This document shows positions 26,652 to 32,560 of a DNA stretch of 48,302 nt, in pieces (positions within the stretch are counted from its first letter, which is position 1; each line of letters opens with the position of its first letter). The stretch lies in the NCBI GenBank assembly GCA_027622595.1, contig JAQBZZ010000007.1:1-48302 (forward strand). The letters are read 5' to 3'. Made by a program: the position numbers and the translations under genes. This DNA comes from Chloroflexota bacterium (GTDB lineage Bacteria; Chloroflexota; Dehalococcoidia; Lucifugimonadales; UBA2985). Under the pieces are notes generated by a model that worked only from the letters and a program-made list of their open reading frames with translations, ran no database searches and was not told the DNA's origin.

Positions 26652-28181
26652 TCAACTCTCGGCTTGCGCCGCAGCCCTTTTGGACTGCAGGTATGCGAGT
26701 GCCCCGAGGATGATCAGCAGGATGCCAAGGCCTATGGCCAGCCGCGGTAGGCTGGTACCGTAGAAGCGAAGGTCCTTCGCATCGCCTTTGGCCGCCTCTA
26801 TCTGAGTATCCACGGTTTCCTGGGTATATTCGATGTCGCTGACAAAGAGAGTGCTCTTTCTTCCTGGGGCGCTGACCAGACTCACCGTCGTGGAGTGGTC
26901 TTCAACGTCAACGACTCTGCCGCTGAGGGGTTCCACCCTGATGGTGATGTTAGAGTCCACCATGTAGGGGCCTATGTCGCCCTCTTCGGCCGGCATCAGA
27001 AGGTCCGCCACGTCTATCTTGAGAACGTATACTTCAAGGCCGTGGAACTGCTCGGTGGACACATAGCTTGCGTCCAGAGGCTGCCGTGCGGCGCTCACCC
27101 ATGTGGGATACACAACGTCCTTGTCAACGCCGAAGGGGAAGGCCAGACCGTCTGTGCGTCCACCCTCGGTTCCCTCAAGATAGACCTTATCGCCCCTGTC
27201 CACTACCAAATTCGCGTTGCTCTTTGGGAATGCCGGCAGTTCTTGATCTGTGCCTGCCAGGGTGGTAGTTACCTGCTCGTTGATGGAAATCTTGTCGCCG
27301 TCTGTGCCTGTGGCTGTCCTCACACGGTGAATCAGGACTGGTATCTGGATGACGGGGAAAGCCGTTGGGTCGCCAAGAAGCCGCATAGTCCTTGGATCGA
27401 CCACCAGTTGAAGCGATGCGGGGTCTGCCAGCAGTTGCTGCACGGTTGTGTCTGCCAGAAGCAGAGGCACAACGGGGTTTGCGAGCACTCCCTGGGCGGA
27501 GGGATTGAGAAGCAGTTGGAGTGCCGTCGGGTTGGCCAGGAGCAGTTGAATAACCGGGTCGGCCAGGATGGCCTGGACAACGGGGTCGGTGGACTGCGCT
27601 GCCGCTACGGGGTCGGCCATCTCAGGGGGATAGTCCTGAGTCGTGCTGAGTAGGCTTATGATTCCACTGAAGCTGGCGTCCGCGCCGATTGGAAGATGTG
27701 TGGCAACACACGCGCGCCCGAAGCGCTGCTGAAGCGCATCCAGCGTCCTCGTAAAGTCGGCGTTCTCCCTGTCCATTTTGTTGACAAAGACAACACGAGG
27801 CGTCGATTGCTTGTCCAGGAGGTCCCAAACCTGCTCCGTGCCCACCTCTATACCGGAAGGAGCGGCCACCAGCACCACACCACCATCAGCCACCCTGAGT
27901 CCCGCAACGACTTCGCCAAGGAAGTCGGCATAGCCGGGTGTATCTATGACGTTGATTTTGTAGTTGTTCCAGAGGCAGGGGAGCAGGGATATCTGGGTGC
28001 TGCTGCCTCTCTTCACCTCTTCCGGCTCGTAATCGGAGGTGGTAGTGCCATCTTCTACGCGCCCCATTCTGGAGATGGCACCGGTGGCGAAGAGGAGAGA
28101 TTCTGCGAGCGAGGTCTTTCCGGCACCACCATGGGAGAGGAGTACAATGTTTCTCAACTGCTCTACCGTAGGATTCTGCAT
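26652..28181 (-). CDS. Chimeric protein: truncated EF-G-type GTPase domain + eight 9-aa repeats + DUF3068-like domain with C-terminal TM
   Basis: SHGGAGKTSLAESLLF, DTPGYADFLGEV, VNKMDREN, then 8x nonapeptide ending ADP/ANP, then a DUF3068-like C-terminus ending LAIGLGILLIILGALAYLQSKR; ATG 28181 preceded by aaaggagg. Confidence 0.85.
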   Translation of the reverse strand: MQNPTVEQLRNIVLLSHGGAGKTSLAESLLFATGAISRMGRVEDGTTTSDYEPEEVKRGSSTQISLLPCLWNNYKINVIDTPGYADFLGEVVAGLRVADGGVVLVAAPSGIEVGTEQVWDLLDKQSTPRVVFVNKMDRENADFTRTLDALQQRFGRACVATHLPIGADASFSGIISLLSTTQDYPPEMADPVAAAQSTDPVVQAILADPVIQLLLANPTALQLLLNPSAQGVLANPVVPLLLADTTVQQLLADPASLQLVVDPRTMRLLGDPTAFPVIQIPVLIHRVRTATGTDGDKISINEQVTTTLAGTDQELPAFPKSNANLVVDRGDKVYLEGTEGGRTDGLAFPFGVDKDVVYPTWVSAARQPLDASYVSTEQFHGLEVYVLKIDVADLLMPAEEGDIGPYMVDSNITIRVEPLSGRVVDVEDHSTTVSLVSAPGRKSTLFVSDIEYTQETVDTQIEAAKGDAKDLRFYGTSLPRLAIGLGILLIILGALAYLQSKRAAAQAES

Positions 28182-28396: not shown

Positions 28397-28438
28397 TCCT
28401 TTGTGATTTTTTGTAACCTGGGGAGGTTGGCGAACTTC

Positions 28439-31400
28439 ATGAGACCCTGGAGGGCCTTTTTACCGGCAACCTGGGTTCTGGTGTTAGCTCTCGTCGCCTG
28501 CCAGACTACGCCTACCCCCACGGTTAGTCCCAGTCCCACGCCAACTCCGACGTCAACTGCCACACCTACGTCAGTACCTACCGCCACCGCCGTTCCCACT
28601 CCTACCCTGACTCCCATTCCCTCGCCAGCGCCGTTGGTAACCCCAACGTCACAGCCAACGCCGACTCCGAGCACACCTGATCCCTTTGATGCAGAGACGG
28701 TTCTAGCATTGAGAAAGACGGTGGTACGGGTCTTTAGCTCGGACAACCAGGGCTCAGGGGTACTGGTGGATGAGAATGGACTGGTGGTTACCAACTGGAC
28801 AGTAATCGGTGATGATCCGTCGGTGCTGGTAGAACTGGCCGACGGGGCCAAGAAGACCGGCATTGTAGTCTGGGTTGACCGTGTGAGCGATTTGGCAGTC
28901 GTAAGCATCTCTGGCCAAGGATATCCCAGCCTCCCAATTGGGGACTCTGGATCGTTGGGGGTCAGTGACGACGTGATCGCGCTAGGTTTCCCCTTTCAAG
29001 GGAGCGTTACTGAAAACGTGGGGAAGATTGAAACTCCTTTGTTCCAGCCATTCATCACGGGTTTGTCCAGTGAGATAGGCTATGTCACCACCGATATGAA
29101 TGTTCTACCTGGAGGTGCGGCAGGTGTTGGAGGCCCTCTGGTGGATGTGGACGGCCGTCTGGTTGGCATCGGCGTAGATGGCTCAGTGTCCGTTTCCGTC
29201 AACCGCCTGGTCGATGTGATATCCACGCTGAGGCAAGGAGAATTTCCCGTCGCGGTCGCAGCCATAGAAGAAGAGATTCTATACTCGGCACTGGGAACAC
29301 TTTTCTCTCAAACGGTCTTGTTTGCTACGGATGAAGAGGGCAATGGTGAGAGACTTCTTCCAAGACAAACGACCTCCAACTCCTGGGTGGAGCGGTCGCC
29401 AGATGGCACCAAACTGGTCTATGCATCTCCCAGAGGTTTGGGGTCTATCTGGGACATTTATGTTGCCAACGCGGATGGCTCAGCGGAAAGTCGCCTCACC
29501 TCTAGCAGCGGGTCAGACCTGTATCCCTCCTGGGGCCCATCGGGTGAGAAGCTGGTCTTCGTGAGCAATAGAGACGGCAACGATGAGATATATAGCATAA
29601 ACGCCGATGGCACTAGCGAGACGCGGCTGACCGATAACGATACCTCGGAATTTGCTCCCCATTTTTCCCCTGATGGGGGCAAAATTGTCTTTATCTCTGA
29701 CCGTGACGGCAACAATGAGATTTACGTCATGGACGCCAATGGGAACAGTGTGGTGCGCTTGACCACTAGTGAGAGCACGGAAGAGTACCCACGATGGTCT
29801 CCCGACGGCCAGCGGATCGTATTCGACTCCGATGTATCTGGTAACCTGGATATTTACGTCATGGACGCCGATGGGAGCAACGTGGTGCGTCTCACCGAGA
29901 ACGTGGAAGGGGAACTATTTGCCGATTGGTCGCCGGATGGGACCAGGATGGTATATGGCACTGCTTTGGGCAACGGCTCCCTGGAGCTTTTCGTGATGAA
30001 TGCGGACGGAAGCGGACAGCGCCAGATAACGGAGAGCGGAGGGGTGAAGCTGTACCCGCGCTGGTCAGGGTCTCCGTCCCTGGATATGCCATCGGTACCC
30101 TCTAACACCTCCATTGCTTTTACCTCTGATCGTGACGGCGATACGGACATATACCGCATGGAAACATCAGGTAACCACGTATATCGACTGACGGATAACC
30201 AAGCGCGGGATGAGACTCCATCCTGGTCTCCCGATGGGAAGCTGATAGCCTTTCAGTCCTTCAGGGACGGCAACGGAGAGATATACGTGATGGAGGCCAG
30301 CGGCCTGGCGCAGCGGAATTTGACTGCCCATACGGCCGAGGATGGACGTCCTGCCTGGTCCCCGGGCGGCACCCTCATCGCCTTTGAGAGCAATCGTGGC
30401 GGCAATGACGAGGTCTACGTGATGAACGCGGATGGCACAGGGACGGTGAATTTGAGCAACAGTTCTGGGAGGGATTTCAATCCCGCCTGGTCGCCAGATG
30501 GCGGTTCCATCGTCTTCACCACCAGTCGCTATGGGTCACTGGAACTGGCGGTGATGGACGCCGATGGTTCCAACGTGAGGCGGTTGACCAGTAACGGAGC
30601 CGTCAGCTTCAGACCCGCCTGGTCTCCCGATGGTCAGACCATCGCCTTCGAGTCCAGTGTCGATGGAGAGTTCGGTATCTATCTCATAGGAGCCGACGGC
30701 ACCGGCCAGGTGAAGCTGGTGGACCTGCCGGGAATACAGCGGGCTCCTGCCTGGGCGCAGGACGGAAGCGCCATTCTCTTTCGTTCAGGCCATCAGGGAA
30801 ACCAGGAACTGTATATGATAAGGCCCGATGGCACAGGCCTGTACCGCCTGACCCGAAACCCGGCCGTGGAAACCGATGGTGCCTGGTCGCCTCTACTGCC
30901 GGTGCGCCTCGGCGTTGTTCGCAACCCGGCCGCGGCCTTTTCATCGGGTGCGACCGGCAACTACGAGATTTTCCTGACCAACGGCGACGGCAGCGTTCAT
31001 GGGCAGTTGACGGATAATCCGGCCTCCGATAGGGACCCATCCTGGTCGCCGGACGGAAGCACCCTGGCCTTTGCTTCCAATCGGGACGAAAACTGGGAGA
31101 TATACACCATTGCCGCCAACGGGACTGCCCTGACACGCCTCACCCAAAATGACACCCTGGAGAGGTCTCCGCGCTGGTCTCCCGATGGACAGATGATCGC
31201 ATTCTGGTCATTTAGGGGTGTTACAGGGGATATTTTCTTGATGGATGCCGATGGCACGGGTGAGGTGAACCTCACCAATAACCCTGGATTGGACTTCAAC
31301 CCCACCTGGTCTCCGGACGGCACCAGTATTGCCTTCCAATCGGAGAGGGACGACAACGGCGAAATATACGTTGTGGATGTGGCCACGGGGGAGCAGACCC

Positions 31401-32560
31401 GCCTCACCGACAACCAGTCCTTCGATGGCTCTCCCTCCTGGTCTCCCGACGGTCAGAAAATACTGTTCCACTCCGATAGGGACGAGAAGGGCAGGGACGG
31501 GAACTTCGAGATATACGTCATGAACGCCGATGGCTCAGGGGTCGAGCGGCTCACGCAGCAGACGGCGAAGGACATGGAGCCATCGTGGTCGGCGGACGGG
31601 GCCACCATCTTCTATGTATCGTGGGTGGATGGCGACGCCGATGTGTTCCGCATGAACCCCGACGGCAGCGGGCAGAGCCCAATGACACGCAGCGTGGCGG
31701 CAGACCTCTCGCCCCAGGCCGCGCCACTGCATACGGCGTTGGAGGGGCAGCCCATAGCCTATCACGCGAGCGATAGCACTGGAGTGGTGCACGTCTGGCG
31801 CATGAACGCGGACGGCACCGGGAAGATTGAGCTTACCACTTCGGCAGCCGACGACGCTTCGCCACAGTGGTCTCCCGACGGCACCAGGATAGTCTTCGAT
31901 ACCCTGCGGGACGGAGACCTGGAAGCCTACGTCATGGATGCCGACGGCACCAATCAGACCAACCTGACCAACAGCCCGGAGACTCAGGACGGGTTCCCTT
32001 CTTGGACTCACGAAGGTGCGCAGATTGTGTTCCAGTCCGACAGGGACAGCGATGACGAGATATTCATCATGAACGCCAACGGAACCACTCAGGTCCAGCT
32101 CACCACTAACACCTCATCGGATACCATTCCACGAGTCTCCCCGGACGGCACCAAGATAATGTTCATTTCAGAGCGGGACGACAATAAGGAAATTTACCTG
32201 ATGAACATGGACGGCTCCAACCAGGTGAACCTGAGCAATACTCTCCGGGATGAGATTTCGGCCAACTGGTCTCCGGACGGCCAGAAAATAGTCTTCTCAT
32301 CGGAGCGGGACGGTCATGCCCAGATATACGAGATGGACGCGGATGGCTCCAACGTGCGGCGTATGACGTTCAACTCGGCGGAGGACTGGTACCCCGCCTA
32401 CTCTTCCGATGCAACCGGCGCTGCAACCGAGATAGTGTTCATGTCAGACAGGGGCGGTACTTTTCAGATATACGCCATGAACGCGGATGGCTCGGACCAG
32501 GTGAGACTCACCGAAGGCAATCTCCACGAAGGCCAGCCAGCGTGGCGGCCGGGCAGCTAG
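28439..32560 (+). CDS. Lipoprotein with degenerate HtrA-like domain and about 24 PD40/TolB-type beta-propeller repeats
   Basis: ATG 28439 with gggagg SD; lipobox LVAC; Thr/Pro linker; [19 protein letters not shown]...SDLAVV...[19 protein letters not shown]; then many [21 protein letters not shown] units. Confidence 0.9.

Follow-up and report, generated by a model that had tools for sequence, protein, structure and literature searches.

The fusion gene

The window, which is the whole stretch of 48,302 nucleotides analysed here, corresponds to an entire contig (C17) of a draft genome of 86 contigs and 1.67 Mb. The source is a single draft MAG, with a contamination of 4.9% according to the tool's estimate. 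On the minus strand, at 28181-26652, there is a single frame of 509 aa that begins with ATG and contains zero internal stops. Frame and profile matches together describe it as a FusA2 head followed by a PorA/DUF3068 tail. The ribosome-binding sequence at the start is still good: AAAGGAGGATCGCTCATG.

The head covers aa 1-189 (27615-28181, minus strand). It contains the motifs G1 to G4 and the opening portion of the G' insert, and it is 79% identical to the FusA2 of the sister genus G004. Pfam GTP_EFTU matches aa 8-175 at E 1.9e-40 (profile positions 2-151 of 188), and the nearest NCBIfam model is NF009381, an elongation factor G subfamily (E 2.2e-68, positions 1-184 of 692). The initial annotation had recognised an N-terminal EF-G (FusA2-like) G domain from SHGGAGKTS, DTPGYADF and NKMDREN; all three are present in the head, the first two as G1 and G3, and the assignment stands.

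The tail starts with a spacer of ten 9-residue repeats at 27345-27614 (DPVVQAILA, DPVIQLLLA, NPVVPLLLA and so on). It continues with a PorA/DUF3068 beta-rich region at aa 280-495 (26697-27344), which shares about 40% identity with the G039 PorA. Hydropathy predicts a single TM helix at aa 481-499 (26685-26741), after which SKRAAAQAES follows; all of these lie on the minus strand. The PorA family PF11271, formerly DUF3068, matches aa 343-494 (E 2.1e-22, profile positions 135-296 of 297) with 80.3 bits, well above the curated cut-off of 29.5 bits, while the NCBIfam model for PgfA (NF053601) reaches 67.6 bits and thus falls below its cut-off of 160. A repeat spacer, a DUF3068-like beta-rich region and a single TM at the end had also been read from the sequence initially, and this description holds.

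In composition the two halves are alike. GC3 is 0.667 in one and 0.676 in the other, the same as in neighbouring genes, and composition gives no sign that the PorA half is foreign, as GC and GC3 do not differ between the halves.

Both parents lack their defining parts

In an intact FusA2 the G' insert with its acidic ESDDD stretch is followed by G5 (PGSA), then by the last strand and helix of the domain, and then by domains II-V. The head of the fusion ends inside the G' insert, and everything that belongs to FusA2 after the joint is gone. The ESDDD(L) of the relatives falls after the joint, so the acidic patch is absent. G5 (GSA), which is present in G004, G002 and G005, is absent together with the last strand and helix, and profile searches find no part of domains II-V in the fusion. 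The GTP_EFTU match, which in the G004 FusA2 reaches position 188 of 188, reaches only 151 of 188 here. The absence of domains II-V had been noted before, correctly, but the loss goes further: the G domain itself is cut inside G' and G5 is missing.

The resemblance to EF-G2/FusA2 (the EFG II subfamily, with NF009381 as best match) thus covers aa 1-189 with G1, G3 and G4 and the same chromosomal slot. Further, G2 has Ser/Thr in place of RGITI, as described for EFG II. The difference is that the fusion is without the acidic patch, G5 and domains II-V, and that an unrelated membrane module is attached. In EFG II both G5 and the acidic G' region are conserved, and the G' region contacts the L7/L12 stalk (PMC3150367).

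What is left of the head is well preserved. Compared with 48 homologues it keeps all near-invariant positions (33/33). With G002 as outgroup it shows 12 unique changes against 14 in the G004 FusA2, while the corresponding numbers for Rex are 6 and 8. Both the rate and the kept positions fit a recent event and continued constraint alike. Because domains II-V are gone, no ribosomal function is expected and the head, judged by its sequence, is unable to serve as an elongation factor. Without G5 and the last strand and helix it would probably bind nucleotide weakly and lack a stable GTPase fold.

The PorA parent is truncated at the opposite end. Its nearest relatives, in G039 (about 40% identical) and G360 (37%), consist of an N-terminal TM, 9-residue repeats, a beta domain and a C-terminal TM, whereas the fusion retains only the end of the repeat array, followed by the beta domain and the C-terminal TM. 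The repeats are of the type [DN]P-x4-LLA; since the two nearest PorA relatives have such repeats in the stretch that separates their N-terminal TM from the beta domain, we assign the spacer to the PorA parent. No N-terminal TM or signal-anchor is predicted in the fusion, which has one TM where the intact relatives have two. The early view that the GTPase replaces the N-terminal TM of DUF3068 is therefore borne out. In general, the fusion shares with PorA/DUF3068 proteins (PF11271), including PgfA, the C-terminal beta-rich half and C-terminal TM, and with the order-level relatives G039 and G360 the repeat spacer. It differs in that the EF-G head takes the place of the N-terminal TM and of the segment that follows this TM.

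For mycobacterial PgfA the beta-barrel-like domain has been placed in the periplasm, from the bright fluorescence of a C-terminal GFP fusion, and a periplasmic location and lipid binding or channel activity are known for PgfA/PorA (PMC9678360). Without the N-terminal anchor, the PorA domain of the fusion would have no evident way out of the cytosol. An inverted topology, as originally suggested, would apply on condition that the product is made and inserted. However, the KR directly after the TM fits the topology of the parent, with the C-terminus predicted to be cytoplasmic, opposite to a tail anchor.

The PorA family has been called exclusively actinobacterial (PMC9678360). In contrast, we find it in Chloroflexota, where it is sparse: 32 of 393 genomes of the class carry it, and most order-level relatives are without any PorA. 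Arrays of 9-residue [DN]P-x4-LLA units also occur in order-level PorA-like proteins (L040:3893-5242; L157:9769-11229), with at least 15 units in G360.

The joint

The joint is present in the assembled DNA. Nucleotide similarity to the fusA2 of G004 runs from the gene start to 27614 and ends sharply there. Past 27614, similarity to FusA2 at the protein level is ambiguous over a few further codons. The segment PPEMADPVAAAQST can be read in two ways, either as the end of FusA2 (PPELAAEISAARE in G004) or as the first of the ten repeats (DPVAAAQST, DPVVQAILA, DPVIQLLLA and so on), and we therefore place the joint at an interval, 27584-27620 on the minus strand. The initial annotation had set the switch at about 27647, after SGIISLL; the switch is real, but it lies about ten codons further on. 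FusA2 alignments that cover aa 1-243 of the fusion cross the joint into chance similarity and are no evidence for more FusA2.

The codons at the joint, ATG GCC GAC CCC, resemble both CTG GCC GCC in the G004 fusA2 and the repeat codons CTG GCC GAC CCG. It is plausible that both parents shared a short (x)TGGCCG(A) stretch at this point, with the G004 and repeat codons standing in for those of the true parents.

Other copies and other genomes

Neither parent has a second copy in the genome. A second FusA2 is not found in the 86-contig assembly, nor are separate FusA2 domains II-V; the best matches for the latter are the canonical EF-G, located on another contig and 43% identical, and a more distant translational GTPase (31%). 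The same assembly contains no other PorA gene and no orphan PorA N-terminus. Genome-wide searches thus rule out a second fusA2 or porA, and the intact fusA2 and DUF3068 genes for which a search had been proposed are both absent.

The bin contains a small contig of 3943 bases (C58, L168) that carries another set of AtpD, AtpC and Rex, with identities of 80%, 53% and 62% to those of the window, along with part of a transporter-like protein. It is probably a contamination of the bin by a relative. As a source of the missing halves it was rejected, for it carries only AtpD, AtpC, Rex and the transporter-like part.

Outside this genome the joint was found neither in 60 relatives nor in 393 genomes of the class (about 450 genomes of the same class), and none of the best 80 loci from a scan of genome contigs spans it. 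Among the 32 PorA-bearing genomes, which include the one studied here, no other has the fusion. The FusA2 relatives are full length, with frames mostly of about 670-760 aa, and a fusion to PorA occurs in none of them. That no related genome carries the fusion had been named at the outset as a refuting outcome; this is the outcome obtained, with the genus represented by this genome alone. The architecture is conserved in no second genome among those searched. As the genus has one genome in the collection, presence of the fusion in close relatives is compatible with its absence elsewhere.

The locus and the loss of FusA2 in the family

In G004 the gene order is ATP synthase genes, AtpC, Rex, FusA2, a PD40 beta-propeller protein and ArgS. 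The window has the same order, with the fusion occupying the slot of FusA2; even the small conserved ORF that G004 has between fusA2 and rex is kept between the fusion and rex. This conserved order argues that we are not looking at a random join of distant regions but at a fusA2 whose 3' part was replaced in its own slot. The PD40 protein of the window (28403-32560, plus strand) has 1385 aa. Its likely lipoprotein-type N-terminus and a Thr/Pro-rich linker lead into a trypsin-like peptidase domain, after which come many PD40 beta-propeller repeats. In G003 and G004 the protein is conserved as a neighbour of fusA2 or rex. The spacer between fusA2 and rex was also considered as a site of tRNA-associated integration, which was rejected: it contains no tRNA and no Rfam family at gathering score.

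Of 59 other genomes searched, at least 37 have a strong full-range match to FusA2; in the family it is confined to G002 and G004. Intact FusA2 is absent from two of the five genera of the family (G001 and G003). In G003 fusA2 is gone and rex adjoins the PD40 gene, and in G001, where both fusA2 and the PD40 gene are gone, rex adjoins ArgS. By protein identities G004 is nearest to the genome of the window, then G002, then G001 and G003; this comparison leaves out two rows in which a wrong ORF had been taken (28% identity), AtpD for G004 and AtpA for G002. From this order of nearness, intact FusA2 seems to have been lost on at least two separate occasions within the family.

A candidate selenoprotein next to the fusion

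Between the fusion and rex, at 26607-26422 on the minus strand, lies an ORF of 61 codons with an in-frame TGA at 26508-26506. Its counterpart in G004 is located at about 11066-11252 of L038. The protein is alike on either side of the TGA: PSTAA-TGA-GYDAMAGSPVWVSKLR in the window and PSTAS-TGA-GYDAVVGSPVWASRLR in G004. Homologues in G008 (E 7e-6) and G517 (E 1.9e-4) have the TGA at the same place, and so does one in G146, whose E-value of 0.0092 over 197 genomes is weak and not significant alone.

The TGA is followed by a seven-pair stem that closes a 5-base loop, and in four of the five genomes the loop starts about 27 bases after the TGA. Standard pairs fill 34 of the 35 pair cells, one change is two-sided, and the stem is lost when the partners are slid. 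Because five of the seven pairs never vary across the genomes, the shuffle control is uninformative. In MFE folding of 51 bases the G004 sequence gives the seven-pair stem, while that of the window prefers another structure. In the published model of the bacterial SECIS, G is found in the first two loop positions, the loop lies 16-37 bases from the UGA and the stem has 4-16 pairs (PMC13188914). The predicted stem-loop fits this model. A tRNA-Sec match of 69-76 bits is present in all five genomes (the genome of the window, G000, and G004, G008, G517 and G146).

With the TGA read as Cys, the ORF matches no Pfam or NCBIfam family. Read with UGA as Sec, it is a candidate for a new small selenoprotein of 61 residues, and it stays a candidate because no Cys-containing homologue was found. 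Part of the amino acid conservation after the TGA could be explained by the RNA stem itself. This ORF is probably more interesting than the fusion gene and may deserve a study of its own.

Origin of the fusion

Two readings had been offered at the outset, a new membrane-tethered GTPase and a recombination or assembly junction. Both parents are truncated, the fusA2 locus is otherwise conserved, no relative shows the joint, and sister genera lack FusA2; for these reasons we favour a recombination junction. On balance, a real deletion or rearrangement probably took place during the loss of FusA2; it was probably recent, and its product is most likely non-functional. The deletion mechanism, its recency and the loss of function are what we infer. 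In the starting state a porA-like gene would have been located downstream of fusA2, or inserted at it, in the same orientation. The 5' part of porA would then have been lost along with the 3' two thirds of fusA2, giving an in-frame head-to-tail fusion. The resulting protein would most likely be unstable or inert, and the gene on its way out. As in other chimeric genes formed by in-frame deletion between neighbours, the fusion has the head of one gene and the tail of the other, a sharp joint and two truncated parents. It differs from them in that the undeleted ancestor is unseen: porA beside fusA2 occurs in no relative, and the starting state of the deletion is thus unobserved. Against a deletion product also stand the lack of relaxed evolution in the head, the open frame of 509 codons and the good ribosome-binding sequence. 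All of these are compatible with a recent event, but also with a maintained gene or an assembly error.

An assembly error is less likely. The true sequence might be an intact fusA2 followed by an intact porA, and the assembly might have lost or mis-joined about 2 kb of it, perhaps in the repeats of the porA spacer. The draft state of the MAG, its estimated contamination, the DNA of a relative in the bin (the contig with the second AtpD-AtpC-Rex set) and the position of the joint at the start of a repeat array would all agree with this. However, the stretch shared at the joint is about 6-10 bases, under the usual assembly k-mers, and the contaminant genes are far too divergent for long shared k-mers. 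Nor are orphan FusA2 domains II-V or an orphan PorA N-terminus left elsewhere in the assembly. Further, the two flanks come from one and the same conserved locus. Unless porA is truly located there, an artefact would thus require two unrelated mis-joins.

A maintained membrane-tethered GTP-binding protein, in which the EF-G2-type head regulates the PorA-type module or is anchored by it, seems improbable and has the weakest support among the three main readings. It would be in line with the open frame, intact G1-G4, a head that is not accelerated and keeps its near-invariant positions, and a complete PorA beta domain with its TM. However, the fold predicted for GTP binding or hydrolysis is incomplete, as the head has lost G5, the final strand and helix and the acidic G' patch (motif roles as in PMC3150367). 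Further, the envelope domain has no N-terminal anchor, no second genome has the fusion, and the KR after the TM points to a cytoplasmic C-terminus, unlike in a tail-anchored cytosolic protein. It is slightly less probable still that the fusion, born from a deletion, is expressed and maintained, with an EF-G2-derived head tethered via PorA and kept for a regulatory role that it gained. There is also a very small chance that the PorA half alone matters: the head would then provide promoter, start and an N-terminal leader, and the tail would act in the envelope by another export route. The whole beta domain and C-terminal TM are indeed kept, but no signal or N-terminal TM is predicted, a folded G-domain fragment in front would impede export, and PorA is absent from most relatives in the order.

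With the deletion chimera as the favoured origin, the fusion is a snapshot of an apparently dispensable EF-G paralogue being lost. It is also a warning that products of in-frame deletion can pass for new domain architectures. The fusion would be of much greater weight only if it is kept and expressed.
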